Of a stretch of 64,000 bases of DNA, positions 21,585 to 54,720 are shown piece after piece (positions within the stretch are counted from its first letter, which is position 1; the number at the start of each line of letters is the position of its first letter). The notes beneath the pieces are model-generated. The model saw only the letters and a list, made by a program, of their open reading frames with translations. It had not been told where the DNA came from and did no database searches. This stretch comes from Tetramitus jugosus (taxonomy: Eukaryota; Heterolobosea; Eutetramitea; Acrasida; Vahlkampfiidae). The stretch is from contig OW569385.1 in NCBI GenBank assembly GCA_937625935.1, forward strand, positions 124,001 through 188,000, in the 5' to 3' direction. A program made the position numbers and the translations under genes.

Positions 21585-21718
21585 AGGTAGGTTGACCATT
21601 GCATATACTTTGGGGATACTTTTTGACTCATTGAACAAACTCATACAACTTGTCATTTACATCACTGACACAGGCAATGAAGTCCCCCTTATCTCATCTT
21701 ATGACTTGCACTCTTGGA
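21585..21718 (-). mobile_element. LINE ORF1 fragment
   Basis: On the minus strand this reads an ORF1 piece with the NESKSIPK..AMV block. At the nucleotide level it closely parallels 30495-30635 of the near-complete copy. It abuts an ORF2 RT fragment at about 21718, out of normal element order, so it is a separate truncated copy or a deletion junction. Confidence 0.7.
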
Positions 21719-23560
21719 TTCTGACACGATGTTGCAGTCGTCAACGTACGCAATGTTCCAGATCCTTTGAGAGAGTGCCTGTTATCCAGAAACTCTTCGT
21801 TGCGCAAACATGAGGACTGTTTGATGTACCAATACATACGTGGGGGACAACGAGTCCCCTTGTCTCGTGCCCTTGTTGACTTTGAAGGGTCTCGAGAACT
21901 GTCCTGCTAATACTTGTGCCTCATTGTTCGACACCATATCAATGACGAAATTGGTGATGTTGTCTGGGTAGCCGAAGATAAGTTAATAAAAGGTATAGTT
22001 GTTTCTGCCTCCTATTCGCATCATCGACAACCTTATACTGTGTCCACCTTACTCTTCTGGCCTTCTTTGCTGTCGATGACGCAAAGAACAGACTCGAATT
22101 AATATGCTCTGACGTTCTCGCTTTCCAGATCCACTTGCGGAATTGGCGATCATTTGACCTACGCCTCTTAAGCCATACTTGTTCATGAGATGGTCCAACT
22201 TTGGGATCGACAATGTGCGATTCTCTATTGAATCAATCAACACTAACCTATGCTGAACAAGCCGTCTGGTCCGTCTATTTTCCCTCACTCTCTTTTCCTC
22301 TTTCCTAACTCGAAAGCATTGGGCGTGATTAACGATCGTGGAGGTAATAAGATCGCATTGCATATTAACATCATCAATGTCCGTGATACCCAGTGTTTTC
22401 AATTCATCTAACAGTCCTTGTCCACTTTGGGTCATCCTTCTCCTAGGGAAGCAATGAGCTGTCAGGATGGGTCCTCGGCACCTACTGACAGTACTCGCTA
22501 CTTTCAGCTTCACCTCAATCGGTAAGTGGTCACTCCTGGTGCCGTTCTGGGAGTAGATTCCAACTCTCTGGATGTCGACTATTGTTTTCCTGCTGCACCA
22601 GACTGTGTTGAGTCTTGATGAGCAGTTCCAAATAGTATGCTTCCATCCAGACGTCCAGATGATCTGTCCGTTCTATTAATTACAGTGTTACGGTCTCCCC
22701 CCATTAACACTTTTCCTTCAACGCTGATCTTGTTCAACACGGCGGAGAGTTTTTCGTAATGTTCCTCACTTCTCATATGTGGACAATAATGATTGACCAG
22801 CGTGTAACTGGTTGATCCTATGCTGATACTCAGGCTTGTATTCTGTCGCTGGAGTGGATGATTCCATAGCTGTCCACTGAAGTGACCTTGATGATTGTCG
22901 CTACATACTTACTTGGTGTGTCGCACAAAAGGACACAATTGATTCTCTCCAGCATTCTGTTGACCCTCTAACAAAAGCGTTCATCCATTTTGCTTGCTTC
23001 CTGGATCATAATCACATCAATACTCTCTGTCGCTATAACGTTGAACGTTAACGATATCATGGATCTTTCTAAGCACTTGTAAAGACTTCTTGTTTCTTTG
23101 CAACGAGAGTTCCTTAATTTGCTTCTCTAATGCCTCAATCTTACTGCTTAGACTTTTCACCATGTCGGTATCTTTGATCTTAAGCATTCTCTTTCTTGTT
23201 TTCTTGTTCGTATCTTCCGTTCTTTCTACATACTTGCTTACAGATCCATTTGGTACTTCAAGTGATTCCATCACTGCCCGAGCATACGACTTTGACTGCA
23301 TGGTACCGAATGCTGTACTACCATTGATGGCCCCTTATCGTTACCGATCATAGATTTGATATTGTTCTCTGTTTTGCCGGTGACATTGTGGACAACAACT
23401 TTCTTGTCGTTGTCTATTCCTTCTCTTCACATCTGCTCTCATATGGGAGTTATTCTCTTTGTTGAAGAGTTCAACAAAATCATACAAATTATCATCCTTT
23501 ACTTACCTCCGGAGAGGATGGAATTGTTTGCGTTTTTTTCGGCATTTTTTGTTTTTTTGT
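21719..23560 (-). mobile_element. Decayed LINE copy upstream of tRNA-Gln
   Basis: Going 5' to 3' on the minus strand, the region holds an ORF1 start-like block (IYDFVELFNKE type, near 23490), and an ORF1 coiled coil (about 23090-23300, heptads of Leu/Ile/Lys). EN pieces include GGDRNTV and a SRLNTVWCS block (about 22570-22740). Next come the EN-RT linker with CDLITSTIVNHAQCF (about 22290-22390) and an RT stretch at 21719-21985. Stops, frame shifts and gaps break it throughout. Its 5' edge lies about 36-40 bp upstream of tRNA-Gln, oriented away from it. ORF1 differs from the tRNA-Thr copies, so it belongs to another subfamily. Confidence 0.8.
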
Positions 23561-23595
23561 TGATTATTGCCCTTCATGACCACTTCGGACGAGTA

Positions 23596-23666
23596 TCTCC
23601 TATGGTCTAGTGGTATGATAGCGGACTTTGAATCCGTTGACGGTGGTTCGATTCCACCTAGGAGAA
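23596..23666 (+). tRNA. tRNA-Gln (anticodon UUG)
   Basis: Acceptor TCTCCTA pairs perfectly with TAGGAGA, with discriminator A. The anticodon loop CTTTGAA gives TTG, and the T arm is GGTGG-TTCGATT-CCACC. No intron or CCA is encoded. Anticodon UUG reads CAA (Gln). LINE fragments flank it on both sides, both on the opposite strand. Confidence 0.92.
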
Positions 23667-23689
23667 TTTTTGCAGTTGCTATGTGTTCA

Positions 23690-24062
23690 TTGCTTCACCA
23701 TATTGATAATGTCGGCCTTACCAGGTAGACCGTTGACATTGTACCAGACAACTCCTAACATAATGTACCTCTTGGCTCTTGTTAAGAAGGCATCCCTCTG
23801 TCGAATCGTTGGTAAGTGAGCAGGGGTATTGATCAATTTCCTTTTCCTCTCATTCGTCTGAGACCCAGTTGAGAGCTTGTGCACCTTATCCCTCTTAACT
23901 GGTCTTGATTGTTCAGACATATTTCTGCCAATTAGTGGACAAGTTTTTTGTCGTTGTCAAGCCCTTTCTGGATAAATGCCTTGGCATTTTTCACACACTT
24001 TCTTGCATTGAAATGAGCCACAAACTCATATATTTCATCTTTCTTGATGTTGAGCCATGCAA
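23690..24062 (-). mobile_element. Old LINE fragment: ORF1 piece joined to ORF2 start
   Basis: On the minus strand, an ORF1 block (IYEFVAHFNARK...KLVH) is followed by a Lys/Arg-rich ORF1 tail. The start of ORF2 follows, with the APE-endonuclease opening MLGVVWYNVNG. Homology stops about 30 bp from the 3' end of tRNA-Gln. Stops interrupt ORF1. It is distinct in sequence from both the upstream and downstream copies. Confidence 0.7.
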
Positions 24063-24876
24063 CCTTGTAGTAGGACCGTCGATGGACACAGAGCCATCTG
24101 TTTTTTTTTCTTGTCTTGGGCCTTGTTGCTCCTCAGATCACCCAGTGTGATCCTAGCACCCCTCTTCTTGTTGTCATTGAGTTGTGGACTCTGAATCTCC
24201 TTTTCGGAGTCATCATCCACATCAACAATGACTGGTTCGTCCTCAGTCAAAACATACCTTTTGCGTGCACTGGCTAGTGCCAATGCAGCAATTTCCTTCT
24301 TCGCTCTTGCGAACACTGGAGAAGTGGCATTCACTTGCTCCAGGATTTGATCTTTGTCAACCTCTTGTTGACAGCCTTGAGAGGATCATGTGGTCTCTCG
24401 ACGTATCGAGTGACCGTGGCCTTGACCTTTTGCTCTCCGCTGAGCACTGCTTGTGCATAGGTTTCATCACCCATGACCACGAAAGCAGTGTCACCCTTCT
24501 TGAGCACACTGGCAACCTTCTCAGGTCCCAGTAGCTTCTTGATGTCGTCCACTGACATGTTCTTCATGCCATGGACGACCACCTTTCTTGTGCAATCAAC
24601 ACTGCGCTTGGGTGCAGCAGTGCTGTTGCCAATCCTCCTCTCTTTGTTGAACAACTCAACAAAGTCATAGATGCGGTCACCCTTGACCGTCACCCATGTA
24701 ACAAAGCGTTGCTGGCCTTTCCTTTTGATGACCTGGACTCGGTTGAGCCAGTAATGACGACCTCTCTGTCACTTGGCCTCGTGCCTATCCGTGCAGTGGT
24801 CCACACTGCATAACGACTGTTGCCGTATTCCTTCACCAAATTTGTTGAATCACCAGACACGTGATTCCGTTTTTTT
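24063..24876 (-). mobile_element. Truncated ORF1-only element
   Basis: The 5' start matches the elements at 31993 and 51881 (AAAAAAACGG then the MSGDST-type ORF1 start, here with ATG changed to GTG). Two internal deletions relative to those copies are visible: about 66 nt between two CCAGT-like words near 24745, and about 270 nt near 24345, each joined at a short repeat. The 3' tail with hairpins and poly(A) is missing. It begins directly after a target-site copy at 24877-24890. Confidence 0.8.
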
Positions 24877-24890
24877 CTGCGTTTTTATCA
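24877..24890. repeat. Target-site copy 4 of tRNA-Thr stack
   Basis: CTGCGTTTTTATCA sits between the poly(A) end of the copy to the right and the 5' start of the copy to the left. The same word occurs at 25536, 30828 and, expanded, at 31994. Confidence 0.8.
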
Positions 24891-25535
24891 TTTTTTTTTT
24901 AAATACAACCATTTCGGTTGCTTAGATTTTATTTTCTGACTATTTACACTGGATAACGCTCGAAGAGCGTTATCTCCTCCGTTACTTTTCATTTCTCACA
25001 ATGACGCTCTACGAGCGTCATTGTTATGTGTCTTCCTTGTGTGAGATGAATAGGTGATGAAGGGTCGACGCACCTCCTCTTCACCCTGTTCACGAATGAT
25101 TTCGCTTTCTTTTCCGCCATGACCTTCTTCACACCGTTCATCCTCAAACCTTTTGTTACTTGTTCCACTGCTTTATTTTCAACCCCCATCATACCAGATA
25201 GGAACTCCTTGCTTGTCTTACGATTTTCTCTCACCGAAATTTTACCATCCATCCACACAACATTATCAAACCATATATCGATTTGCTGCTTATGATGAAC
25301 ACCCAGCTTGTCAAGGTCTTTACCTACGGACAATGCCAGTCTTCTTCGGCGCACGATGGCCCTTGGACAGCGTATGAGACAGTGTTGTATCGTCTCTGGC
25401 TCTTTGAGACATCGCTCACATCTTTCCATCTTCATCCTTGCCATAAAGACAGCGCTTTGTCTCTTTTGTGTGAAGAGTACCGCTGCGCACTTGAGCATAG
25501 AACCACTCCACTTGCCTATTGATCTTGTGGGGGTT
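24891..25535 (-). mobile_element. 5'-truncated LINE copy (ORF2 C-terminus and 3'UTR)
   Basis: A 645-bp insertion bounded by target-site copies on both sides. It begins inside ORF2 at the NRQVEWF block and contains the zf-RVT-like CxxC...EPETIQHCLIRCPRA motif. The ORF2 terminal helix follows, then two 3' hairpins, the CAACC/GGTTG mini-hairpin and a 10-nt poly(A). Classic target-primed products look like this: full 3' end, variable 5' loss. Its ORF2 is clearly diverged from the neighbouring copy, so it is not a tandem duplication of it. Confidence 0.88.
24906..25024 (-). promoter_or_regulatory. 3'UTR hairpin cassette
   Basis: Three stems are present: ACAATGACGCTC/GAGCGTCATTGT (24998-25024, 12 bp, 3-nt loop), GATAACGCTC/GAGCGTTATC (24952-24974, 10 bp), and CAACC/GGTTG (24906-24920). 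The same order occurs in the neighbouring full copy with different stem sequences. It is probably the RNA end recognised by the element's reverse transcriptase (inference). Confidence 0.75.
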
Positions 25536-25548
25536 CTGCGTTTTTATC
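25536..25548. repeat. Target-site copy 3 of tRNA-Thr stack
   Basis: CTGCGTTTTTATC lies exactly between the poly(A) of the near-complete LINE and the truncated 5' end of the next copy. It matches the target words at 24877 and 30828. Confidence 0.8.
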
Positions 25549-25570
25549 TTTTTTTTTTTTTTTTTTAATA

Positions 25571-25680
25571 CAACCATTTCGGTTGCTCACTTTATTGTCA
25601 ATACATTTTCATCAGCCATCGCTCTTTGAGCGATGGCTCTTGGTCGTCTGATTAATTCCCAATGACGCAGAGCGTCATTG
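25571..25680 (-). promoter_or_regulatory. 3'UTR hairpin cassette of the near-complete LINE
   Basis: CAATGACGC/GCGTCATTG (25660-25680, 9 bp) overlaps the ORF2 stop codon. AGCCATCGCTC/GAGCGATGGCT (25614-25638) is an 11-bp stem with a 3-nt loop. CAACC/GGTTG (25571-25585) precedes the poly(A). An AATAAA lies between the second and third stems. Confidence 0.8.
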
Positions 25681-28600
25681 CTGTTGTTTCGCTTTTGTTG
25701 CGGTGAAGAGGTGAAGGAGAGTCGTGAGACATCTCCGTTTCACCCCATTCACAAAGGTTCTTGCTTTCTTACCGGCTTCTGTTGTTTTGATCCCAGTCTC
25801 TACCAGTCCGTTGGTGACCTCTTCGATGGCGTTTGTTTCTATGCCCATCATACCCTTCAGAAATTCTCTACTCGTCCGTCGCAAAGGACGCCTTTCCATC
25901 TTGCCATCCTTCAGTCGCACATTATCGAACCATATGTCGATACAGGACACACCCATGCTGGTAAGCTCCTTACTGACAGTCAAGGCTAGACATCTTCTTG
26001 CATACACAGCCCTTGAGCATCGAATGAGGCAGTGCAGCACACTTTCGGGTTCTTTGTTACACCAGACACACATTGAGGGCTCGGTGCCAGTGTTATAAAG
26101 ACACCGAACAACTTCCTCCGTGTGGAGAGTACCACTTCTGACCTGAAGCTGGAACCATTCCAGCCTTCTGTCAACAACGTGTGGGTACTTGAGAAAGCTG
26201 AAGTCTGCGCCGCTGTAGTTGGCATCTTTTTGAATCCACCAACGCTCGCTCTTCTCTACACGTGCATTTCTCTCCTGATCAAACAGGGACTGTAGGTGTT
26301 CTCTACTCTCGACTCTGAGGTTACTCTTGTACAGAGCAGGTTCATTTTTAGTGGAGTTTTGGCTAATGGGACACTGACAGGTCCTCATTTGCGCAATCAA
26401 AATGTTCAGTATTTGGTGCGACTTTGCACCTATCCTACATGTTGGGAATAGTTTCTTGAATTCTTTGAAACAGATGGGATGTTCCTCTACAAGCAGTTGA
26501 TTGCGGCTGACTATACCTGAGAGGTAGAGTTTTTTGAGGATGGTGGATGGTACGTACCTTGCCAACCTACACTCATCACACTGCGTAGTTGTATCAACAG
26601 TTAATCTGATCCCATGTGCGTGCATCCTGATGGCACACCACTTGTGGTAAGTTGACATGACATTCTCGAGTCTGTTGCTTGACTGAAATACATTCTCTTG
26701 TTGGAATGTTTGGTGGAGCTTGATGTCCTCAAGCGTGTCAAGGAACAGCCTACGAGCTTCAGTGTCTCTCTTACCGTTGATCATTGAGAACACAAACCAT
26801 CCAGTCTGCGTCGCAATTGTCTCTTCAATGTCCTTTAGTCCTACTGACCCGAGCTCAAAGCCGATGGACAGTAGCTCAGTCGGGAACCTCTTCATTGCCT
26901 TCGACCCGAACTTCACTAATGATCTTCCCAGTGTATTAACTTTGTTCAACCACTCATCTGTCCAGTCAGTAAACTCTGATGCATAAGCGAATAGAGGATG
27001 GATGCACGTGTTCACCACCCGACTCACTTGTCTTGCGGTGAGTCTCATTATTTTGAGCCTAACAACCACCCTCTGTGCCTTTTGCCACGCTTGTTCTCTC
27101 TGTTTCTGGGTTGCACCCTTGAGATTCGTGTACAGACCCAGCGCACGAAACACCTGCCTGTTGTTTCTCCCCACCACCTTGGTGCCATCCACAGTAATGT
27201 CGTTCGATGACTTATTGTCCACTTTTCTGACGTAAAGTTCCAACTTGTCAGGATGCATTAACCCAAAGCGGTAGACATTGCTTTGGCGGCAATTTCAATG
27301 TCCTCCCTGGATTCAGCAAACAGATTACAGTCATCCACGTACGCAGCATTCCAGAGTCTCTGAGTCATCGCACCAAATCCTTTCACTTGACTTTTCACAT
27401 ACAACAAAACCACTTGGTGCACCAGTATGTAGGTAGTGGGTGATAGTGAATCACCCTGTCTCGTACCTTTCCCTATTCTAAACCTTCTCGAAAGCGAAGA
27501 GGTCAAGACTCGTGCATGATTGTCACGCACCATACCACTGACAAGTTTCACTATTCCCTCAGGAAAACCAAAGAATCTGTATACAGCTTCTATGGCGTTG
27601 TGCGGAACCGAGTCGAAAGCCTTGGAAATGTCCGTCAACAAAAGGTACAATTGCTTGTCATGACGATTGGCACAGTCAATGACACCCCTTATCAAGGACA
27701 GTTTCTCCCTGATATCTCGAAATTTTCTTCCTCCCCCTTGAACATTCGTAAACACACATCCTTCCTCTGCCGCCTTCGAGATGCGTTGATTCAAAAGCTT
27801 AGTGTAAAGCTTAGACAACGAACTAAGAAGGCAAATAGGACGATAGTTCTCTGGTCGTGTGACGTCCCCTTTTTTGTAGGCAGGGATGATCACACACTCC
27901 TTCCACGCTCTCGGGAACTTGCCGGTATTAGTGATGTTGTTGAAGAAGTTGCAGAGAGTCTCTGCCAATTCCCACCTGAAGTCTCTTTTCTTGGTGCGCG
28001 GGAGTTTGACCATCTCGTTATGAACACCGTCAGCACCTGGGCATTTTCTATTCCTTAACCATCTGATTGCTTCCGCGACTTCCTCTGTCTTGAAAGGTTG
28101 GATAGCTGTCCTCAGTTTGTGTTTATCGCTTCGACTATCCATCAGTGCAAGGAAGCCCATGCTAGCTTTATCCTTCTTGAATGCCTCTTCGTAATAGTCA
28201 GCTGCTACTTCACCAACTATATGAGGATCTGTGTATTGCAAACCGTTTTTGGTGACCCTAGTCAACCGGACTCTACAACTCTTCTTTGCAGATGCAGCAG
28301 AGAAAAACCTCGACGGGTCGCTGAACTCAGACGTTCTTGCTATCCACTCCCACTTTCTGTACTTGTGTGTTGCCTTCTTCGCCCTTGCTTGGTGGAGTGA
28401 ATCATTGATGTACTTGAGTGTACTCAATACTCTATCTGCTCTTGGTTCACTTTTGTCGGTGGACGAGCATATCCGGTCCAGCTTGGAGCACCATACGTGG
28501 TGCGACATGAACTTCATCAACAAAGCTCTGTGTTTCAATAGTCTTCTCTCTCTTCTACTCTGTCTCCATGTTTTTGTTGCTTTCACATCTCGGAATTGCT

Positions 28601-29471
28601 GGGCATGCTCAAGAATGGTGCTGGTGATAAGTTCACATTGGGAATCCACATCGTTAGAGTCCTGAATCCACCCTCTCTTCAACGTACTGACAACGTTTTT
28701 TGCATAGTCCACCCACCTAGGATCACTCCTATCTTTTGGAAATCGATACGACCTGCGCTCACTTAAGGTTGGAGTGTGTTTATCAGTTTCCACTACCAAC
28801 AGCGTGGGAACATGATCGCTGCCTACACCATTTTGGGTGTACATTTTCACTGCTTCTATATCTTCTAGGGCAGCTCTATTGCACCATACTGTGTCGATGC
28901 GTGAAGAGGAACCCTTCTTTTAGAAAGTGTGGAACCTCTCCGTACCCAGCTTTTCGTTCACATCGAAAAGGTTGTTGTCCGTCATCGTCTCCACCAGCGA
29001 TTTTGTGTTGCGATCGATCCTACCAGCAGACCTATCCATGGCACACGAGACAGCGTTATGGTCTCCTCCAAATACGAACTTCCCTTCTAGTGAGAACCGA
29101 CTGATTACCTGTTTCAAACTTCGGTAGTGTGTCAAGTCACTCTTGTGTGGTCCGTAGTGATTTGCTAATGTGATGGTCCTGTTTCCCACTTCGATCTTGA
29201 TTACCTGTAGTCTGTCTTGGCTGTGAAGTACACCGTATATGGGCACTGTTGTGGTGCGTACAATTGTAGCAAGATATTGATTGGGTGCGTCGCACAAAAG
29301 TACACAGTTAATACGGGACAGCTGTCGGCTTAGCTTTTGATACCACACTTCATTGATATCTGTTGCCTCTTGTACCATTAGCACATCTATTTCCTCTGTT
29401 TCCATCAAGCTCACCACATCCAAGGCCTTACCCTTGATTCCATTAATGTTGTACCATACCACGTTCAACAT
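25675..29471 (-). pseudogene. LINE ORF2: APE endonuclease, reverse transcriptase, zinc motif (disrupted)
   Basis: About 1,265 codons across two lesions. EN motifs seen in order: WYNINGIKG, VQEATD, NHYGPH, GGDHNAV, SRIDTVW and GSDH. RT motifs: NYRPICLLSS, LLLTDISKAFDSVPH, GKGTRQGDSLSP and the catalytic AYVDD. The C-terminal part has CxxC-x8-H-x4-C (CVWC...HCLIRC), like the zf-RVT module of plant and insect LINEs. Lesion 1 is a TAA at 28920-28922, inside EN just before SRID; the frame continues unchanged after it. Lesion 2 is a 1-nt loss at about 27258, just after the AYVDD domain, where stop and next ATG overlap as TAATG. I read both as decay. No RNase H domain is evident. Confidence 0.9.
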
Positions 29472-30817
29472 TGATTAGGTGGTTGGGAATCAGTCTCGTT
29501 TGGCTCATCATTTTGAACTTGACTAGCCGATTGTGCATCACTGTTTGATGACAGCAACATGGATTTCTTTCTTCTCCTCTCAGAAAGCGGGATGTGAGCT
29601 CCTCTTTTGCCTCCTTCTTTGATTGGAGTATCACTATTTTCAGTCTGCTCAGAGGTCAAAAACCGGTGCATTGTTGCTTGTTTGTCTCGAATGAGACTTC
29701 TTAATCTTCTTGTCTTTTGACGCTCTGACATGTTGGAATTCACGTCAGTTAGGTGCTCAAAGGTTATCATAGAGCTTGCCATGACGGAAGTTGCCATGCC
29801 TTCAGTACTTAGTGCTGACTCCCAACTGTCACTTGAATCCTCCACTTCACTGGTGACAAATGACCCGCGGTTTACTTCAGAGACAGGTTCACTTGTCTCT
29901 CTCTCCACTGCACAGTCCACCACAACTGCCTCTACCTGGTTTTCCATAGGACTATCCCTTTCTGGGTCACCGATTACTTCCACCAGCATCATTGCTGTTC
30001 CGCTTGGTTCGGAGTCTCCATGCACATCCTCAACTGTGTCTACTTCCTCTTCTTCCGTGACCATGTCACTCTCATCCTCGACTTCTTCTGAGAGCTGTGG
30101 TGCTCTTCCTTTGCTCCTGAGTCCCTTATCTGCACCTGCTTTCTTGGGGCGACCACTGTTCCTTTTACCGAAAGTGCTTTCGAGTTGAACAACTCTCATT
30201 TGAAGAGACTCAATTTGCCTTGTTAGTTGTGCCTTCATTTTCTTGAATCTCTTGGTTAGTTCAGTTAGTGGATCGCTTTTTCTTTCATAGTATGGGCTGA
30301 TTTCCGCCACAATCGTCTTACTGCCAACCACAGCCTGTGCATACGTCTGATTTGTCATCGTTACAAATGCGACATCACCTTTTTTCTCCACGTGCTTCAC
30401 CTTTTCAACACCGAGGAGTCTCGCTATGTCATCCTTTGATTGTCTTTCCATTTTGTGCACTACAAGTTTCTTCTCACTGTCGATTCCTCTCTTGACCATT
30501 GCATGTGCTTTGGGGATTCTTTTTGACTCATTGAAAGCGTCTACAAACTCATACAACCTGTCATTCACAACATTGACCCATGCAATAAAGTCACCCTTGT
30601 CCCATCTAATGACTTGCACTCTTGTGACCCAATCACCATATTGCATCCCAATTGCTTTGGCCATTGCTGAGTGTGTTCTGTGACATTCCGTCCCTTTGAT
30701 TACCACTTCCTTTTTGTTCATTCCGCTTCCATTGATCAGTGTCGTCCATACTGCGTATCCGTCACGAACATACTCGCGCACGCCCTTAGAGGATGAGATG
30801 TTTGTTTGTTTTTTCAT
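29465..30817 (-). CDS. LINE ORF1 protein (450 residues)
   Basis: An intact frame. The first about 190 residues are shared with the ORF1-only elements: a YAVWTT block, a DWVTRVQVIRW block, a LYEFVDAFNESKR block and a VVVHxM-type segment. A Lys/Arg/Leu coiled-coil stretch (about 190-225) follows, then a long acidic Ser/Glu/Thr tail ending in a basic patch. No CCHC knuckle is present. By analogy with other LINE ORF1s it should bind the element RNA (inference). Its stop (TGA, 29465-29467) overlaps the ORF2 ATG (29469-29471) inside ATGTTGA, in a different frame. The ATG at 30815-30817 is only 10 nt from the element's 5' end. Confidence 0.85.
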   Translation of the reverse strand: MKKQTNISSSKGVREYVRDGYAVWTTLINGSGMNKKEVVIKGTECHRTHSAMAKAIGMQYGDWVTRVQVIRWDKGDFIAWVNVVNDRLYEFVDAFNESKRIPKAHAMVKRGIDSEKKLVVHKMERQSKDDIARLLGVEKVKHVEKKGDVAFVTMTNQTYAQAVVGSKTIVAEISPYYERKSDPLTELTKRFKKMKAQLTRQIESLQMRVVQLESTFGKRNSGRPKKAGADKGLRSKGRAPQLSEEVEDESDMVTEEEEVDTVEDVHGDSEPSGTAMMLVEVIGDPERDSPMENQVEAVVVDCAVERETSEPVSEVNRGSFVTSEVEDSSDSWESALSTEGMATSVMASSMITFEHLTDVNSNMSERQKTRRLRSLIRDKQATMHRFLTSEQTENSDTPIKEGGKRGAHIPLSERRRKKSMLLSSNSDAQSASQVQNDEPNETDSQPPNQC

Positions 30818-30827
30818 AGCGTTTTTT

Positions 30828-30845
30828 CTGCGTTTTTATCATTGC
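30828..30845. repeat. Target-site copy 2 of tRNA-Thr stack
   Basis: CTGCGTTTTTATCATTGC, 18 bp, lies between the poly(A) of the ORF1-only element and the 5' end of the near-complete LINE. It is the longest and probably cleanest version of the repeated target. Confidence 0.85.
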
Positions 30846-30873
30846 TTTTTTTTTTTTTGTTCCATACAACCAT

Positions 30874-30945
30874 GTGTGCTTGCGCAGCAAGCGCACGATT
30901 GCTCATTTATTGACTTGTTTTGTGAGTGACGACCCGTAGGGCGTC
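30874..30945 (-). promoter_or_regulatory. 3'UTR hairpins of ORF1-only element
   Basis: GTGTGCTTGC/GCAAGCGCAC (30874-30896) forms a 10-bp stem with one G:T pair. A second stem formed by TGACG and CGTCA flanks (about 30925-30950) has one bulge. The positions match the two stems of the autonomous copies, but the bases differ. Confidence 0.65.
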
Positions 30946-31116
30946 ATTCACTCTTCTTCTCTTGTTGTCCCCGACGGTGCACCTACAGGTTGAAAGAATC
31001 ACTCTGGTGAGTGTTTTGGTTGATGCTCTTCATCAAAGAGCGTAACCTTGTAGTAGGACCGCCGATGGACACAGAGCCATCTGTTGTTTTTTTCTTGTCT
31101 TGGGCCTTGTTGCTCT

Positions 31117-31977
31117 TCAGATCACCCAGTGTGATCCTGGCACTCCTTTTCTTGTTGTCATTGAGTTGTGGAGGATTTGCTGATTTTGAGTGCTGAGCTG
31201 TGCAACAGGCACTGTTGGCAGTGGTGTTGCACTCCTTTGTTCTTCTGCCTCCATTATATCAGGAGCAGTTCTTTGTGCAACTTCTTGTTCCGGTATTGGA
31301 ACCGGTTTGTTGCCCTCTAGACCCTTTGTCTTAGCCAATTCCTTGGTGAGTTCTGTGACCTGTCGACGCAGTGCGTCAACCACCGTCAGCAGCTCCTCGT
31401 ACATCTTCGTCAACCTCTTGTTGACAGCCTTGAGAGGATCATGTGGTCTCTCGACGTATCGAGTGACCGTGGCCTTTACCTTGTTCTCTCCGCTGAGCAC
31501 TGCTTGTGCATAGGTTTCATCACCCATGACCACGAAAGCAGTGTCACGCTTCTTGAGCACACTGGCGACCTTTTCAGGTCCCAGTAGCTTCTTGATGTCG
31601 TCCACTGACATGTTCTTCATGCCATGGACGACCACCTTTCTTGTGCAATCAACACTGCGCTTGGGTGCAGCAGTGCTGTTGCCAATCCTCCTTTGTTTGT
31701 TGAACAAATCAACAAAGTCATAGATGCGGTCACCCTTGACCGTCACCCATGCAACAAAGCGTTGCTGGCCTTTCCTCTTGATGACCTGGACTCGGTTGAG
31801 CCAGTCATCAAACTCCTCTCCAATCTTTCTTGCCAATGCTGACTGAGAGACACCATTACCATTGCCAGTAATGACGACCTCTCTGTCACTTGGCCTAGAG
31901 CCTTTCCGTGCAGTGGTCCACACTGCATAACGGCTGTTGCCGTATTCCTTCACCAAATTTGTTGAATCACCAGACAT
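31117..31977 (-). CDS. ORF1-type protein of the non-autonomous element (286 residues)
   Basis: It starts MSGDSTNLVKEYGNSRYAVWTT. It carries the same N-terminal domain as the larger ORF1 (WLNRVQVI, IYDFVDLFNKQRR and VVVHGM blocks), followed by a Leu-rich coiled coil (ELLTVVDALRRQVTELTKEL). Compared with the copy at 51905 the C-terminal third is altered: a deletion after STQNQQIL shifts the frame, so the acidic SEKEIQSPQ tail is lost. It may still be translated. Its likely role is RNA binding in trans mobilisation (inference). Confidence 0.75.
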   Translation of the reverse strand: MSGDSTNLVKEYGNSRYAVWTTARKGSRPSDREVVITGNGNGVSQSALARKIGEEFDDWLNRVQVIKRKGQQRFVAWVTVKGDRIYDFVDLFNKQRRIGNSTAAPKRSVDCTRKVVVHGMKNMSVDDIKKLLGPEKVASVLKKRDTAFVVMGDETYAQAVLSGENKVKATVTRYVERPHDPLKAVNKRLTKMYEELLTVVDALRRQVTELTKELAKTKGLEGNKPVPIPEQEVAQRTAPDIMEAEEQRSATPLPTVPVAQLSTQNQQILHNSMTTRKGVPGSHWVI

Positions 31978-31993
31978 GTGATTCCGTTTTTTT

Positions 31994-32030
31994 CTGCGTT
32001 TTTTTTTTTTTTTATTATCATTACCATTGC
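31994..32030. repeat. Target site beside tRNA-Thr (copy 1, T-run expanded)
   Basis: CTGCG, a T run of about 15 and ATTATCATTACCATTGC are recognisable as the stack target CTGCGTTTTTATCATTGC with an expanded T run and small duplication. It ends about 30 bp upstream of tRNA-Thr. Confidence 0.65.
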
Positions 32031-32060
32031 TATCATACAGTCAAACCAGATAGTACAAAT

Positions 32061-32133
32061 GGCTCCTTAGCACAGGTGGCAGTGCGCTGTCCTAGTAAGA
32101 CAGAGGTCACGAGTTCGAGTCTCGTAGGAGCCT
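32061..32133 (+). tRNA. tRNA-Thr (anticodon AGU)
   Basis: Acceptor GGCTCCT/AGGAGCC is perfect. The anticodon stem CTGTC/GACAG encloses loop CTAGTAA (anticodon AGT, presumably edited to IGU). The T arm is ACGAG-TTCGAGT-CTCGT. There is no intron or CCA, and the discriminator is T. It lies 95 bp upstream of the SSB gene on the same strand and about 67 bp from the retroelement stack. Confidence 0.93.
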
Positions 32134-39323: not shown

Positions 39324-39336
39324 TAAAAATCATTAT

Positions 39337-43227: not shown

Positions 43228-43259
43228 AATAATAAATTATTGTATTGAAACTATCTCGC

Positions 43260-47656: not shown

Positions 47657-47863
47657 AAATGGAAGTTATCTTCACACTCCGACAATTCCATAAAAAAACT
47701 TTACAACAACTCTGAAGTTCTCCTCAACATCGAACTTCACACCCTTCAAAAGCTCGTTTCTTGGTTTTGCACTTTCAAGTTTTCTCATCACACAAAACCC
47801 ATACTTCAATCACCATAATCCACGAACACAACAACTACCCACTCATAACACAACAAACTCACT

Positions 47864-49712: not shown

Positions 49713-50021
49713 TTATTTAACGCGATCTCTCAGTCTCTGTTCCTCCTTGTCCGTGGATTGCTTCAGTGGTTCGTCTTTTTTCAAGTTGCCTCGATTCAAG
49801 TATTCCAAATCAGAAAAGTTTATGTTCTGGTCCTTGTACAATGGATAGATATCGTTGTACGGAGTGAGGTTGTTAATCGTGTTCATGTCGAGAGAATCCA
49901 TTGATTGTTCGTCGATGCTGTCAGATCGTGCCTTGTCCATTGTATAGCAGCACTTTTGAACAGAGTATCTGGCTGGAGGTTTGCCTCTGATGACTTCTCT
50001 TATGATGATTCTTCGTAGCAT
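49713..50021 (-). CDS. Small possibly mitochondrial protein, uncharacterised
   Basis: A 102-residue protein from the ATG at 50019-50021, starting MLRRIIIREVIRGKPPARYS, an Arg-rich amphipathic start like a mitochondrial presequence. The rest is Asp/Asn/Glu-rich (NTINNLTPYNDIYPLYKDQNI) and ends in a charged helix. CACAG just before the ATG could be the end of a leader intron. I do not recognise a family. Confidence 0.5.
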   Translation of the reverse strand: MLRRIIIREVIRGKPPARYSVQKCCYTMDKARSDSIDEQSMDSLDMNTINNLTPYNDIYPLYKDQNINFSDLEYLNRGNLKKDEPLKQSTDKEEQRLRDRVK

Positions 50022-50270
50022 TGTGGACCTGTGAAAAGTTATGTACAATTTACACTTATGTTCTTTGTTTCAATAGGAGCTTGATTGAATGATGAATTGG
50101 TGTTGTGTGTTTCCAATGCGAGATCTCGCCAGATAAAATTAATTCTTCGTACCTTTTTTAGTATCTCGAAGTCAACTTACTTTAAGAAATGAACACTCTT
50201 TACAACCGATGATTCTTCTTTTCTCCGCTCCAAGTAGTTCCATTTTTTCGGCGAAGATCACAAAGAAAAA

Positions 50271-51752
50271 ATGTTGAACTCATCTCGTTGCGTGGCTTTG
50301 CTTGTTGTACTTTTGCTATTTCTGTCTGCCATGTCCGTTTTTTCATCTAGTTCTTTTGGAAGTGATGTTCATGTGTGCCAATCTAAATTTTCTCAATGGA
50401 TGGATGACTGGTTGTCCAGGAACGAAGGCAGAGCCTCATTTGGAGTATCCGTGCGTAGTTTGAACCCAGAATCAACGTTCAACTATCAGTACAATGCCAA
50501 AAAATTATTCCAACCTGCATCAACAAACAAGGTGTTGACGACTGTTGCTGCCCTCGTAAATCTTGGAAGTGCCTACCAATTCCGTACTCGTATTCTGATT
50601 GACAAGAATACGAAGAGGAGATTAAGGATTGAAATGACGGGTGATCCTTCGTTGTCTAGCACTGTTTTAGTCGATAAGATCAAGTCTCTATCGATTGAAG
50701 GCTCCATAGAAACAGTCGAAGTGGATATCTCTGCGTTCAAGAACACTGCTCCATTGCCTGACAGCTGGGAATTTGGTGACTTGGGTTATGATTATGGTGC
50801 TCAGCCTAGCTGTTCAGTTTTGGACCATAATTTCGTAATTTTTCGGATATCACCTGGAGCAAGTGTTGGCCAGCCGCTGAGTGTTGTTCAGTTAAACGAT
50901 CAAGGAACACCGACAATATGGGAGAATGTTTCTGTTTTTGGACTAAAGGACACTAGAACAGTAGATAATCAAGAGACGAATATTCGAGAGCCTGATTTGT
51001 TTTATCGACCGGGTGAGGACGCGTTGCGAATTGTGGGTCAAATGAAGTTGGGTGCTAAGAGTGTTGATATCGTTCGATCTGTGATGAAGCCTGATGAGTA
51101 TATTGCCAAGACGGTTGCAAGGATGGTTGGCGCACGCAACAGCACCGTAACAAGCGAACCACCAGGCGAGAATTATGTTTCCATTGGCACAATACTGTCT
51201 GAGCCGATAACCGTACTCATGAACAAAACCTTGTTAGAGTCTGACAATTTATATGCCGAATTGTTCATGCGTCAACTCGGTGTTCTCAAATCAAAGAGTG
51301 CTAGTGACAACATTGAACAGATTGGGATTGAACGAGTGAGATCTGTCTTGGTGGACGCTCTGGGTGTAACGGCTGACTCATTCAGGCAAGCTGATGGTTC
51401 AGGATTGTCGCGACAAAACTTGGTGAGCCCTCAAAGTTTAGTAGAAACATTCTATCACCTCTATCAAAGAGATCGCTCCTTATTCAAGTTGTACAAATCC
51501 ATGCTTCCAGTGGGAGGAGTGAGTGGTACTCTTAAGAACAGATTTGTTGATTACCCAGGAGTTGTTCAGGCCAAGACTGGAAGCATGACGGGTGTGATAT
51601 CTCTTTCTGGTCTTGTGGACAGTTTTATGCCAAACCACGACCCATACTTGTTCGCATTTATCGTTAACCAGTCTTCTCTCACCTCTTCCCAGATCAGGAA
51701 AGCAATGGATGAAGTTGTAATTGCCCTCCACCAGATGGATCGAAGTTGCTAA
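50271..51752 (+). CDS. D-alanyl-D-alanine carboxypeptidase/endopeptidase-like (peptidase S13, PBP4/DacB)
   Basis: A 493-residue protein. A signal peptide (about 1-25, CVALLVVLLLFLSAMSVF) is followed by the S13 fold with all three active-site motifs: SxxK as ASTNK (Ser at about 83), SxN as SDN (about 323) and KTG (about 435). QPASTNKV and AKTGSMTGVISLSG match the PBP4 family; length matches bacterial DacB. In bacteria these enzymes trim or cleave peptidoglycan cross-links. A wall-less amoeba would more plausibly use it, secreted or lysosomal, to digest bacterial walls, or on other substrates (inference). It sits in normal eukaryotic context with neighbour-like codon use, so it is an established transfer and not contamination. 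AATAAA follows the stop directly. Confidence 0.92.
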   Translation: MLNSSRCVALLVVLLLFLSAMSVFSSSSFGSDVHVCQSKFSQWMDDWLSRNEGRASFGVSVRSLNPESTFNYQYNAKKLFQPASTNKVLTTVAALVNLGSAYQFRTRILIDKNTKRRLRIEMTGDPSLSSTVLVDKIKSLSIEGSIETVEVDISAFKNTAPLPDSWEFGDLGYDYGAQPSCSVLDHNFVIFRISPGASVGQPLSVVQLNDQGTPTIWENVSVFGLKDTRTVDNQETNIREPDLFYRPGEDALRIVGQMKLGAKSVDIVRSVMKPDEYIAKTVARMVGARNSTVTSEPPGENYVSIGTILSEPITVLMNKTLLESDNLYAELFMRQLGVLKSKSASDNIEQIGIERVRSVLVDALGVTADSFRQADGSGLSRQNLVSPQSLVETFYHLYQRDRSLFKLYKSMLPVGGVSGTLKNRFVDYPGVVQAKTGSMTGVISLSGLVDSFMPNHDPYLFAFIVNQSSLTSSQIRKAMDEVVIALHQMDRSC

Positions 51753-51763
51753 ATAAAAGGGAT

Positions 51764-51837
51764 TACAGGCTATGAGAATCGAACTCATGACCTTAACGGT
51801 GTAAACGTTACGTTCTAACCGACTGAACTAAGCCTGC
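51764..51837 (-). tRNA. tRNA-Val (anticodon UAC)
   Basis: Acceptor GCAGGCT/AGCCTGT (terminal G:T), D stem GTTC/GAAC, anticodon stem TAACG/CGTTA with loop TTTACAC (anticodon TAC), T arm ATGAG-TTCGATT-CTCAT and discriminator A. There is no intron or CCA. Its 3' end lies 12 bp past the stop of the S13 peptidase gene, and a retroelement stack starts 29-43 bp from its 5' end. Confidence 0.92.
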
Positions 51838-51865
51838 TTTCTCTATAAATAGATTTTTGAATTGT

Positions 51866-51880
51866 TATTGGACGTTATTT
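51866..51880. repeat. Target-site duplication, left copy
   Basis: TATTGGACGTTATTT is repeated exactly at 53123-53137, flanking the ORF1-only element. This 15-bp direct repeat is the signature of a target-primed insertion. Confidence 0.93.
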
Positions 51881-51904
51881 TTTTACAGAAAAAAACGGAA
51901 TCAC

Positions 51905-52990
51905 ATGTCTGGTGATTCAACAAATTTGGTGAAGGAATACGGCAACAGCCGTTATGCAGTGTGGACCACTGCACGGAAAGGCTCTAGGCCAAGTGACAGA
52001 GAGGTCGTCATTACCGGCAACGGTAGTGGTGTCTCTCAGTCAGCATTGGCAAGAAAGATTGGAGAGGAGTTTGGTGACTGGCTCAACCGAGTCCAAGTCA
52101 TTAAAAGGAAAGGCCAGCAACGCTTTGTTGCATGGGTGACGGTCAAGGGTGACCGCATCTACGAGTTTGTTGAGTTATTCAACAAACAGAGGAGGATTGG
52201 CAACAGCACTGCTGCACCCAAGCGCAGTGTTGATTGCACAAGAAAGGTGGTCGTCCATGGCATGAAGAACATGTCAGTGGACGACATCAAGAAGCTACTG
52301 GGACCTGAGAAGGTTGCCAGTGTGCTCAAGAAGCGTGACACTGCTTTCGTGGTCACTCGATACGTCGAGCGGCCACATGATCCCCTCAAGGCTGTCAACA
52401 AGAGGTTGACGAAGATGTACGAGGAGCTGCTGACGGTGGTTGACGCACTGCGTCGACAGGTCACAGAACTCACCAAGGACTTGGCAAAGACAAAGGGTCA
52501 AGAGAGCAACAAACCGGTTCCGATACCGGAACTAGAAGTTGCACAAAGAACTGATCCAGATCTAATGGAAGCAGAAGAACAAAGGAGTACAACACCACTG
52601 CCAACAGTGCCTGTTGTACAGCTCAGCGCTGAAAATCAGCAAATACTGGAGCAAGTGAATGCCACTTCTCCAGTGTTTGCCAGAGTGAAGAAGGAAATTG
52701 CTGCATTGGCACTTGCTGCTGCACGCAAAAGGTATGGTTTGACAGAGGACGAACCAGTCATTGTGGATGTGGATGATGACTCCGAAAAGGAGATTCAGAG
52801 TCCACAACTCAATGACAACAAGAAAAGGAGTGCTAGGATCACACTGGGTGATCTGAGGAGCAACAAGGCCCAAGACAAGAAAAAAACAACAGATGGCTCT
52901 GTGTCCATCGGCGGTCCTACTACAAGGTTACGCTCTTTGATGAAGAGCATCAACCAAAACACTCACCTGAGTGATTCTTCCAACCTGTAG
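51905..52990 (+). CDS. ORF1-type protein of the non-autonomous element (361 residues)
   Basis: Starts MSGDSTNLVKEYGNSRYAVWTT; the ATG at 51905 matches the other copy. The N-terminal domain has WLNRVQVIKRK and IYEFVELFNKQRR blocks. A VVVHGM segment, a Leu heptad coiled coil (about 165-190) and an acidic tail (VDVDDDSEKEIQSP) with a basic end follow. Compared with the 31117-31977 copy, about 21 residues (MGDETYAQAV...) are deleted in frame after AFVV. On the other hand the full C-terminal tail is kept. An intact frame suggests recent activity or selection. Confidence 0.8.
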   Translation: MSGDSTNLVKEYGNSRYAVWTTARKGSRPSDREVVITGNGSGVSQSALARKIGEEFGDWLNRVQVIKRKGQQRFVAWVTVKGDRIYEFVELFNKQRRIGNSTAAPKRSVDCTRKVVVHGMKNMSVDDIKKLLGPEKVASVLKKRDTAFVVTRYVERPHDPLKAVNKRLTKMYEELLTVVDALRRQVTELTKDLAKTKGQESNKPVPIPELEVAQRTDPDLMEAEEQRSTTPLPTVPVVQLSAENQQILEQVNATSPVFARVKKEIAALALAAARKRYGLTEDEPVIVDVDDDSEKEIQSPQLNDNKKRSARITLGDLRSNKAQDKKKTTDGSVSIGGPTTRLRSLMKSINQNTHLSDSSNL

Positions 52991-53020
52991 GTGCACCGTC
53001 GGGGACAACAAGAGAAGAAG

Positions 53021-53095
53021 AGTGAATGACGCCCTACGGGTCGTCACTCACAAAACAAGTCAATAAATGAGCAATCGTGTGCTTGCGCACACTTG
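53021..53095 (+). promoter_or_regulatory. 3'UTR hairpins of the ORF1-only element
   Basis: TGACGCCC/GGGTCGTCA (about 53027-53046, one bulged base, TAC loop) and GTGTGC/GCACAC (about 53077-53092) lie in the same positions as the stems of autonomous copies, with AATAAA between them. Confidence 0.6.
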
Positions 53096-53122
53096 GTTGT
53101 ATGGAACAAAAAAAAAAAAAAA

Positions 53123-53137
53123 TATTGGACGTTATTT
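53123..53137. repeat. Target-site duplication, right copy
   Basis: TATTGGACGTTATTT, identical to 51866-51880. Its last three bases overlap the first copy of the next target word. Confidence 0.93.
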
Positions 53138-53149
53138 GAAGTAGTTATG
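53135..53149. repeat. Stack target word, copy 1
   Basis: TTTGAAGTAGTTATG. Exact copies follow at 53922 and 54263 and a two-mismatch copy at 54381; each lies at an element junction. Confidence 0.9.
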
Positions 53150-53921
53150 TCACATAGAAAACAGGAAGCATCTGCAGTCACTATTTGACCAGGAAAGGAA
53201 CAGAAGAGTGGAAGAATGTGTGAGAGGTGGTGGTTACAAAAGGCCGTTAGTAGAAGTGAAGCGGACTTCAGCTTCCTCAAAAATCCCCACAGTATAGACA
53301 GGCAGCTTGTGTGGTTTCAGATGCAAGTCCTCAGTGGGACGCTCCATACCGCAGAGGTTGTAAGAGTCCTCTACAACTCAGACAACAATCCCACCAAATG
53401 CGTATGGTGCAGTCAGGAGCCCGAAAGTGTGCTCCACTGTCTAATTCGGTGCCCTAGAGCGGTTCGTGCCAGAAGATGCCTCGCTATGACGGTGGCAGCA
53501 GAAATTATCAAGATGGGGGTTGCCGATACCAGCTGTATCAATATATGGTTCGACAATGTGAGGATAGTAGGCGGAGAAGTGGTCAGGAGACCGTTGAGAA
53601 GAACGAGCCGGGAGTTCCTGATGGGAATGATGGGTGTTGAGACAGAGACCGTCAGCGACATCGCGGAAGGTCTGATAGCAAATGGAGTAAAGACAGCAAC
53701 GGCAGATAAGATAACTAAAACTTACGTGAATAGTGTGAAACGGAGATGCCTCACGACTCTACTCCACCTATTCACGCAACGAAAGAGAAACAACAGCAAT
53801 GACGCTCTCCGAGCGTCATTGGGGAATCAAAATGGTGACCAAGGGCCACCGCTCTGCGAGCTATGGCTAATGAATATAACAGACAATAAAGTGAGCAACC
53901 GATATGGTTGTATTAAAAAAA
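53150..53921 (+). mobile_element. 5'-truncated LINE copy (ORF2 C-terminus and 3'UTR)
   Basis: Starts inside ORF2 (HLQSLFDQERN block) and after a one-base shift near 53222 reads ADFSFLKNPH, the CVWC...HCLIRCPRA zinc motif and the ORF2 end. A 3' hairpin CAATGACGCTC/GAGCGTCATTG (53797-53821), a weaker second stem, AATAAA, a CAACC/GGTTG-like mini-hairpin and poly(A) follow. It is flanked by target words at 53135 and 53922. Confidence 0.88.
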
Positions 53922-53936
53922 TTTGAAGTAGTTATG
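53922..53936. repeat. Stack target word, copy 2
   Basis: TTTGAAGTAGTTATG, directly after the poly(A) of the preceding copy and before the next truncated copy. Confidence 0.9.
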
Positions 53937-54262
53937 TAAGCGGAGGAAAACATTGGGTATTGAAACAAGGCCGCTGAAACAAGTGATCAAAGGACTGACG
54001 AAGAGTGGGATGGAGAAGAAGAAGGCAAGTGAGAAGGCCCAACAATTTGTCGATCATACAAAGAGTAGGTGTGTGGAGGTGATGCGACGCCTCTTCACGT
54101 GTTCAAAGGAGATTGCTGGTTGCTAATGCTCTACGAGCATTTGCAACTACTTAAATCAATAGTGACGGCATTCTGCCGTCACGAAACCGATACAGAGAAT
54201 CAACAAAGAAGGAATCAACAAAGAAGTAAAATGAGCAATGGTTGTATTTTAAAAAAACAAAA
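53937..54262 (+). mobile_element. Short 5'-truncated LINE copy, divergent subfamily
   Basis: Reads the last part of ORF2 (a GIETRPLKQVIKGLTKSG block, then SRCVEVMRRLF) in one frame, then hairpins TGCTAATGCTC/GAGCATTTGCA (one mismatch) and GTGACGGCA/TGCCGTCAC (54162-54182), and a GGTTGTATTTT-poly(A)-like end. Protein and hairpin sequences differ clearly from the preceding copy. Confidence 0.85.
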
Positions 54263-54277
54263 TTTGAAGTAGTTATG
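54263..54277. repeat. Stack target word, copy 3
   Basis: TTTGAAGTAGTTATG, exact, between two truncated copies. Confidence 0.9.
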
Positions 54278-54380
54278 CTACCGTAGAAGATCCAGTTGAG
54301 TTGGATCTCTGTAACTCCGACTGCGAGTTACAGAGTCACCACCTCACGCACCATTTGTTGAATTGCTTTGTTGAAAAAAA
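54278..54380 (+). mobile_element. Minimal LINE 3' end (about 100 bp)
   Basis: Only the 3' end remains: stems AGATCCA/TGGATCT (54288-54308) and TCTGTAACTC/GAGTTACAGA (54308-54334), then a short unique stretch and eight A's. No coding sequence is left. The base sequences of both stems differ from all other copies. Confidence 0.75.
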
Positions 54381-54395
54381 ATTGAAGCAGTTATG
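54381..54395. repeat. Stack target word, copy 4 (diverged)
   Basis: ATTGAAGCAGTTATG, two differences from the other three. Its last bases (GTTATG-like) also match the ORF1 sequence at the start of the next fragment, so the junction shows microhomology. Confidence 0.75.
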
Positions 54396-54720
54396 CAGTG
54401 TGGGCCACTGCACGGAAAGGCTCTAGGCCAAGTGACATTGGCAAAGGGTAAAGAAGTTCCAATATCGGAACTAGAAGTTGCACAAAGAACTGCTCCTGAT
54501 CTAATGGAGGCAGAAGAACAAAGGAGTTCAACACCACTGTCAACAGTGCCTGTCGTACAGCTCAGCGCCGAAAATCGGCTAATTCTGGAGCAAGTGAATG
54601 CCGCTTCTCCAGTGTTCGCCAGAGTAAAGAAGGAAATTGCTGCATTGGGCAGGTTGGAGATTCAGAGTCATCCACATTCTCAACGACTGGTTCGTCCTCA
54701 GTCAAACCAAAGACTTGACT
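54396..54720 (+). mobile_element. Internally deleted ORF1 fragment
   Basis: Starts within ORF1 at the AVWTTARKG-coding position, jumps by an internal deletion of about 400 nt (between CCAAGTGAC and TTGGCAAAG) to the acidic tail region, and then degenerates. There are no 3' hairpins or poly(A). It is the outermost, presumably oldest, piece of the tRNA-Val stack. Confidence 0.75.

Follow-up and report, generated by a model that had tools for sequence, protein, structure and literature searches.

The long interspersed nuclear elements (LINEs) sampled in the genome of the amoeba Tetramitus jugosus (Heterolobosea, Discoba) lie immediately upstream of tRNA and 5S genes, on the opposite strand and with their 5' sides toward the gene, at two distances that are bound to element family and lie about one helical turn apart. 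The stretch analysed, hereafter the window, comprises 64,000 nt (contig C42, positions 124001-188000) of assembly GCA_937625935.1, which holds 26,348,746 bases in 56 contigs. The enolase found there is by far closest to 7UGH (587 bits, against 393 for the next match), which papers assign to Naegleria fowleri, although it differs from that protein at many places. A sequence-only reading of the window had noticed a divergent LINE upstream of each of four tRNA genes and proposed that the family targets genes transcribed by RNA polymerase III (Pol III) at a fixed distance and strand. The strand held and 5S genes joined the tRNA genes as targets; the single distance gave way to two, according to family. 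Both the observation and its reading are supported, more strongly than first stated. New here are the two family-bound nick distances, counted from the tRNA 5' end and free of sequence preference, the near absence of a 5' untranslated region (UTR) and the common elements that carry only the first open reading frame (ORF1). In all likelihood, the element endonuclease is docked by the Pol III initiation complex, as proposed for TRE5 of Dictyostelium, with TFIIIB as the inferred contact. Judged from the sequences, the insertions bear the marks of target priming, a fixed nick, a single strand, repeated use of one spot and a choice of tRNA and 5S targets.

Sampled copies lie at tRNA and 5S genes in one orientation

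Distance and strand were read from samples of the copies, namely 20 reverse transcriptase (RT) loci, 36 tRNA genes and 20 ORF1 starts, and the library used for BLAST consisted of elements cut from the T. jugosus genome itself. A sharp position and a single orientation, the outcome expected of a targeted family, appeared in all three of these differently chosen samples. The sequence-only reading had named many copies far from tRNA genes as evidence against itself; in these samples none could be placed with certainty outside both the neighbourhood of a Pol III gene and a stack of elements. The RT sample consisted of the best 20 of 73 RVT_1 matches, fetched at 10 kb each (L-numbers denote stretches fetched from the genome and C-numbers its contigs). 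Fourteen of these lay directly upstream of a tRNA gene (L010, L011, L013-L015, L017-L019, L021-L024, L026 and L027) and one directly upstream of a 5S gene (L028, BLAST edge at 51 bp), where the adjoining tRNA-Tyr bears a separate 1-kb element. Three were stacked behind another element (L012, L016 and L020), one was placed by eye at a tRNA-Gly-like 5' remnant (L025), and the last, L009, matched none of these positions. A further 20 stretches of 0.8 kb were fetched, 18 of them blind at full-element distance, L073 on a B-box hint and L085 beside RT locus L009. Five contained tRNA genes, all divergent (L068 and L071-L074), with L073 showing only the leader motif of an element and no library match. 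Another held a 5' remnant of tRNA-Trp adjoining a family C element (L069, by eye), and L067, L075 and L076 were interiors or junctions of stacked elements. The other 11 had neither a tRNA nor an element 5' edge (ten without a library match, L081 with an interior one) and are uninformative because truncated copies were missed by design.

For the tRNA sample, an Rfam listing scored 63 of 1,593 candidates, 53 of these 63 being nuclear; 36 of the nuclear genes were taken, each together with 520 bp of upstream and 180 bp of downstream sequence. Half of them (18/36) had an element upstream, every one divergent: 16 were found by BLAST (L029-L032, L043-L047, L050, L051, L056, L058, L061, L063 and L064), L048 by eye with a target-site duplication (TSD), and L059 by an RT match 1.5 kb upstream; L032 and L015 are one and the same tRNA. 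The Dictyostelium counterpart of this figure is 61%, as given in section 9 of PMC5006619. A strict B-box pattern, with 369 places against 59 for a control pattern, was kept as a count only; it was rejected as a genome-wide tRNA map because it misses many tRNAs. Ten ORF1 starts that it had left unassigned were fetched, and seven proved to be at a tRNA and three stacked. ORF1 N-terminal matches numbered at least 94 as tabulated (at least 50 in family A and at least 27 in family E), and 20 without an assigned gene were fetched, 17 of A and three of E. Directly upstream of 12 tRNA and two 5S genes, all divergent, these starts lay so close that each of the 14 genes begins within 80 bp of ORF1; the other six directly adjoin the poly(A) of an element that points the same way (L116 and L118-L122, by eye), and none of the 20 was located elsewhere than at a tRNA, a 5S gene or a stack. 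Twenty of at least 47 dispersed 5S genes were also fetched with 200 bp upstream. Divergent element pieces were present in ten at E<=1e-3 (L092, L093, L096-L098, L103, L105 and L107-L109) and in six at the stricter E of 1e-8. A 3.4-kb piece of host DNA beside L011 gave no library match at 1e-3.

Random insertion, or insertion with a weak bias, could give the same picture if a compact genome then lost every copy outside the harmless stretches ahead of tRNA and 5S genes. The genome is indeed small (26.3 Mb), and long open frames crowd the window, which would make most other sites costly. Survival of this kind cannot produce the strand bias at tRNA and 5S genes, nor does it account for the absence of any library match within 180 bp downstream of all 36 sampled tRNA genes (BLAST). 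It likewise cannot yield a nick that is fixed within a few bp for each family, or two values about a helical turn apart, and we regard it as extremely improbable.

Some further features of these loci were recorded. Both tRNA remnants, that of tRNA-Trp (L069:222-235, the 5' 14 nt) and the Gly-like 5' half (L025, about 4108-4155), continue into TTATTGTATC; this is perhaps another insertion into tRNA genes and could be chance. Partial RVT_1 matches close to contig ends (C3:2089, C17:2337, C10:606104, C48:379851, C9:603492 and C22:2739) suggest subtelomeric LINE copies. RVT_1 matches on C16, C28, C15, C30, C40, C7, C14 and C35 start only at model position ~44-65 and may represent a different reverse transcriptase family.

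First nicks fall into two family-bound classes

TSDs were found by script in 16 of 20 loci and measured 11-20 bp with a median of 15; one of them, at the tRNA-Thr gene of the window, was a false pick. As the first nick we took that edge of the duplication which is nearer to the tRNA and to which the poly(A) 3' end is joined. In families A, B and C it lay 28-32 bp upstream of the tRNA (class I, 10 insertions); in D and F, with which two fragments were grouped on the strength of their 3' tails, it lay 38-44 bp upstream (class II, eight insertions). The two classes do not overlap; their means are 11.4 bp apart (exact Mann-Whitney p 4.6e-5), about one helical turn. After removal of tail-assigned and eye-set cases, nine insertions stood against five, and the classes stayed apart. 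In the L012 stack a copy of family E had its nick at 40-43 bp (by eye). The 5' edges, measured partly at other loci, were at 42-47 bp for A, 44-47 for B, 42-44 for C, 53-55 for D-like elements and 52-55 for E, and overall they fell mostly at 39-47 or 52-57 bp. Within the ORF1-start sample, A edges stood at 39-45 bp at nine of ten tRNAs. Two A edges at 5S genes measured 38 and 39 bp, and the nick of a D-like element there measured 33 bp (by eye); these few distances are shorter than most at tRNA genes. The nick distance was unchanged where the tRNA gene has an intron or a long arm (29 bp in L013, 99 nt long; 31 bp in L018, 83 nt; 40 bp in L026, 88 nt), so that the ruler begins at the tRNA 5' end and not at the B box.

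An endonuclease that recognises a DNA sequence happening to occur upstream of Pol III genes would also cut at a constant place. APE endonucleases can be sequence-specific, as those of R1 and TRAS are, and the tRNA 5' flank shows weak A-rich conservation. However, no column of the nick contexts rose above chance in base preference (information reached at most 0.52 and 0.56 bits, where chance gave mean maxima of 0.56 and 0.64), and tRNA and 5S flanks are unlike each other by eye. Among 18 unoccupied tRNA 5' flanks no strong shared box was found, except for gene-adjacent A-richness. We consider recognition of sequence very unlikely.

Several apparent irregularities were traced and dismissed. On account of A-runs on the tRNA strand, L050 had looked like a reversed element; its distal junction (L087) revealed a divergent one whose TSD reads TTTTTAACCACTTTTA (by eye), together with a T tract that has expanded. 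The D element of L056, with an edge at 43 bp, had appeared to sit at class I spacing; its distal TSD puts the nick at 38 bp (by eye). An A-rich CGCAG motif at truncated 5' ends, considered as added RNA, lies within target duplications that take in the 5' terminus of an older copy in the stack (by eye). L050 also shows, at 442-483, an expanded A14-GG-A23 on the tRNA strand between tRNA-Arg and the truncated element, which shifts the apparent edge outward and resembles the T run at the tRNA-Thr gene of the window.

Anatomy and relationships of the elements

The more complete library elements are 4.4-5.3 kb long. An APE endonuclease, an RT, a poly(A) tail, 5' truncation and target duplications identify them as APE-type LINEs with target-primed insertion; with their poly(A) ends, no LTR (long terminal repeat) seen and no integrase domain in the scanned ORFs, they lack the features of Ty3-type LTR elements. 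ORF1 has an RRM-like N-terminal part in a low-confidence AlphaFold model (mean pLDDT 53), followed by a coiled coil. Tandem RRM proteins were the best Foldseek matches, and VIA-align also listed AcrB-type domains at similar Z, which limits the claim to 'RRM-like'. ORF2, of ~1,270-1,300 aa, contains the APE endonuclease, the RT and a C-terminal zinc knuckle. Among three ORF2 scanned, PF00078 was over the cut-off in all three, PF03372 matched in three and passed the cut-off in one, and PF13966 matched in two under the cut-off; a conserved CxxC-H-C stretch was present and no RNase H family was listed. The ORF2 start overlaps the ORF1 stop in all eight junctions (ATGA or ATGTTRA), and re-initiation appears likelier than frameshifting for ORF2 translation.

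Most full 5' ends begin with an A run. The start codon lies 3-24 nt past the target duplication in all ten full 5' ends with a script-found TSD, and A copies measured without a TSD have leaders of 25-35 nt. The 3' ends consist of hairpins, a CAAC...GTTG stem, TATT or TATGG, and then poly(A) (by eye). In the 3' UTRs of B, D and F, as at window positions 25571-25670, there are repeated hairpins of the ACGCTCT-x-CGAGCGT type with family-specific stems (by eye), which look like a conserved structure with changes on both stem sides. Families A and E are ORF1-only elements of 1.1-1.4 kb.

The 21 RT sequences used formed one group (support 100/100) on a long stem of 1.5 changes per site. C forms one branch, and B is placed (84/65 as sister) with D, Dd and F (100/99). 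Since D, Dd and F are one RT clade, the larger spacing marks a single clade, and the spacing of A, B and C is common to C and B. A and E are sisters in the ORF1 comparison (SH-aLRT 88). The database protein P0140 (NCBI, from a 3.1-kb contig) nests inside the RT group, so a relative exists in another record, perhaps of another genome. Deeper placement, including any tie to the L1 clade, is weak: the tree was rooted at its midpoint, its stem is long and few of its references bear names, and in it the group joins another that contains proteins of Anolis, Xiphophorus and Hibiscus (90/97). The best PDB matches were R2 elements for the RT and L1 for the endonuclease.

A proposed model of docking at the Pol III initiation complex

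We propose that the Pol III initiation complex, and within it most likely TFIIIB, would position an endonuclease of little sequence preference on the DNA, and that the reach of this enzyme along the helix, with two positions a turn apart, would set the nick and with it the distance and the strand. That the nick of a single clade is displaced by about one turn agrees with an enzyme fixed to one face of the helix. Repeated insertion at one spot pushes older copies outward and leaves co-oriented stacks; the ORF1-only elements A and E would be mobilised in trans by ORF2 proteins of full elements. The tail of A is like that of C and the tail of E like those of D and F, which would suit such mobilisation. 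ORF2 is suggested as the ruler by A and E, which are sisters by ORF1 and nevertheless differ in spacing. A general rule by which the 3' tail predicts the spacing was rejected, for B ends in TATT yet inserts at -30. With the start codon no more than ~35 nt from the element 5' end, the promoter would be expected either within ORF1 itself or in the DNA that flanks the Pol III gene.

The partner in docking could instead be Pol III, TFIIIC or the chromatin of the flank. What the data establish is a place on the DNA and not a protein, and Ty1 uses Pol III subunits (parts of PMC5911963 and PMC10050235). Against this, the distance is independent of the B box, which argues against measurement from the B-box-bound part of TFIIIC, and insertion is confined to a much smaller span than the ~1 kb given for Ty1 in part of PMC5911963. 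Docking on such partners seems to us rather unlikely. The same source, in part, describes binding of TFIIIB subunits by TRE5-A ORF1.

Several observations weigh against this account or loosen its measurements. The role of TFIIIB would follow from position and the Dictyostelium literature. Two of the eight class II insertions (L028 tRNA-Tyr and L048) were assigned by 3' tail only, and three of 18 nicks were set by eye (window tRNA-Thr, L048 and L056); for the tRNA-Thr gene the script value of 55, a match to a stacked motif, gave way to 30. In several cases the nick has an uncertainty of as much as 8 bp, since A's beside the poly(A) are unassignable (38-44 in L019). Some edges are off-class: 36 in L073, where the family rests on the leader motif, 35 in L113, 39 in L125, 30 in L024 (perhaps nested), 46 by eye in L117 (family E) and 43-49 in L056 (family D). 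RT locus L009, a 5'-truncated copy and one of 20, had no Pol III gene found beside it, and the sole BLAST match in the 5S flank L104 was a reversed fragment. Two U6 loci had no element match at 1e-3; either not every Pol III gene is targeted or this sample is too small.

A broader combination, which we put forward tentatively as possible rather than probable, adds several steps to docking at TFIIIB. Elements with a near-absent 5' UTR would have their ORF2 endonuclease docked by TFIIIB in a fixed helical phase, one RT clade being shifted by a turn on the same face. The flank would act as a divergent promoter, so that only copies landed there and in that direction would be transcribed, and A and E would reach about -30 and -41 through copied 3' tails (TATGG, TATT) of different autonomous families, with spacing set by ORF2 and not ORF1; the system would have arisen independently of TRE5. 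The borrowed promoter is hypothesised from the missing 5' UTR.

The four tRNA genes of the window

ARAGORN and Rfam gave the same four tRNA genes that had been noticed in the window. All four have LINE sequence upstream, divergent and with its 5' side toward the tRNA (BLAST, by eye), as claimed, and the further statement that retroelements occur there only beside tRNAs was borne out: BLAST matches were confined to four tRNA-upstream blocks (1879-1994, 21592-23561, 24061-31998 and 51886-54709), and the remaining ~50.9 kb gave no match to the element library. The range assigned to the pattern, 21585-54720, leaves tRNA-Arg outside. As to the edge distances, the value for tRNA-Val is 43 bp; that for tRNA-Thr is 47-62 bp with the T-run expansion and that for tRNA-Gln ~36-46 bp by eye, and the tRNA-Arg edge is too decayed to bear a figure.

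The tRNA-Val(TAC) block is the clearest to read. The gene (51764..51837, minus strand) is followed on the plus strand by the proximal copy of the target duplication TATTGGACGTTATTT (51866..51880, by script), which places the first nick 28 bp from the tRNA; with the 15-bp duplication, this gives the 5' edge at 43 bp. The A-family ORF1-only element (51886..53108, plus strand; ORF1 at 51905-52990) then ends in poly(A)15, and the distal copy of the duplication (53123..53137, plus strand) is identical over its 15 bp. Behind it lie older decayed LINE fragments (53169..54709, plus strand, BLAST), an F 3' part and A/E pieces, of which a short one at 54667-54709 is inverted, marking the block as a decayed stack.

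On the left of tRNA-Thr(AGT) (32061..32133, plus strand) four co-oriented elements stand in a row on the minus strand, each behind the poly(A) of its inner neighbour. The closest, E1, is an A-family ORF1-only element (30858..31998, BLAST) with the ORF1 N-terminal part at C42:155525-155977. E2 is an F-family LINE of 5.3 kb (25566..30824) with ORF1, an endonuclease-RT-zinc-knuckle ORF2 containing frame breaks, and poly(A). Its ORF1 of 450 aa (29465..30817, minus strand) shows the RRM-like N-terminal part, in the low-confidence model, and the coiled coil; an ORF2 piece (27258..28919, minus strand) contains the RVT_1 domain at 84 bits. The third, E3, is a D-family 3' fragment (24902..25537, BLAST), and the outermost, E4, an A-family fragment (24061..24886, BLAST).

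Upstream of tRNA-Gln(TTG) (23596..23666, plus strand) lies a decayed B-family LINE (21592..23561, minus strand; BLAST pieces at 83-94%) that has kept its 5' end and suffered internal deletions, and the outermost 125 bp of this block match family F. The tRNA-Arg(TCT) gene (1676..1749, minus strand) is accompanied by a decayed, 5'-truncated and divergent fragment with the ORF2 C-terminal part (1787..1994, plus strand), whose start was set by eye at a blurred edge; its BLAST match covers 1879-1994 at 72%.

Elsewhere in the genome, C54 and C56 have identical tRNA positions and seem to be an organelle genome, probably mitochondrial, present twice.

Comparison with known targeting elements

In the available parts of PMC5391098 and PMC5911963, TRE5-A of Dictyostelium discoideum is described as inserting ~47 bp upstream of tRNA genes on the opposite strand with its 5' end toward the tRNA. 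It has an ORF2 with APE, RT and zinc finger, an oligo(A) end and tandem copies, and the ORF1-only TRE5-A.2 type borrows ORF2; the former source, in part, adds insertion upstream of 5S genes at a somewhat shorter distance. The A edges of T. jugosus resemble these at both tRNA and 5S genes. TRE5 is characterised by insertion ~44-54 bp upstream in opposite orientation, and the T. jugosus elements have edges mostly at 39-47 bp (A, B and C) or 52-57 bp (D and E), all divergent; ORF1 and an ORF2 with APE, RT and zinc finger are likewise shared. Unlike TRE5, they show two spacing classes about a helical turn apart, and they lack its modular A/B 5' UTR, the start codon lying within ~35 nt of the 5' end; their host is a discoban heterolobosean and not a dictyostelid. 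TRE5 is said to need a -1 frameshift for ORF2; in T. jugosus the ORF1 stop and ORF2 start overlap, and a shift there would be less likely than re-initiation. The ORF1 of TRE5-A is described as unlike that of any other element.

These resemblances could mean that the T. jugosus elements are true relatives of TRE5, through descent or horizontal transfer and not convergence. The ORF2 layout is the same (APE, RT, zinc knuckle and no RNase H found), as are distance, orientation, 5S targeting, tandems and ORF1-only derivatives, so far as the sources tell of them for TRE5. Speaking for convergence, the clade sits on its long stem, the 5' UTR is near absent against the modular UTR of TRE5 (in part of PMC5911963), and no Dictyostelium or TRE name occurred among the matches listed in three protein searches (19, 120 and 120 rows), most of them nameless. 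Kinship is in our judgement unlikely. The 5' UTR and host differ, and we do not claim membership in TRE5; the sequences would accommodate convergence or descent.

Polysphondylium pallidum NLTR-B is similar in being a non-TRE LINE found 39-64 bp upstream of tRNA genes (PMC5006619, section 9, and part of PMC5911963); it encodes an RNase H, and none was found in T. jugosus ORF2. Yeast Ty3 and dictyostelid DGLT-A also use a narrow window upstream of Pol III genes, and Ty3 docks on TFIIIB (part of PMC5911963). They differ as LTR elements with an integrase, which insert much closer to the start site by another joining mechanism. HAL1 elements are mammalian half-LINEs, that is, ORF1-only LINE derivatives; they share this build with A and E, have no such site specificity and belong to an unrelated lineage.

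TRE targeting is called unique to dictyostelids in sections 9 and 11 of PMC5006619. In the available text of the genome note on T. jugosus CCAP 1588/3C (PMC11106597), the terms retrotransposon, repeat and tRNA do not occur, and no open-licence PMC paper was found with both the name T. jugosus and 'retrotransposon'; the Naegleria lovaniensis paper, in part, gives 190 LINE copies and, in that part, no placement relative to tRNA. The targeting described here explains the position and stacking of the sampled LINEs in the T. jugosus genome. Through the RT clade whose nick has shifted by about a helical turn, the docking hypothesis can be put to a direct test; the A/E pair raises the question of whether ORF1 or ORF2 sets the distance. 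Among open-licence PMC papers, such targeting is known so far from Dictyostelium and its relatives; the LINEs of T. jugosus work like TRE5 in a distant supergroup, and this discoban amoeba adds another natural system to the first, one that offers several families, target duplications that can be read and a genome at chromosome level.

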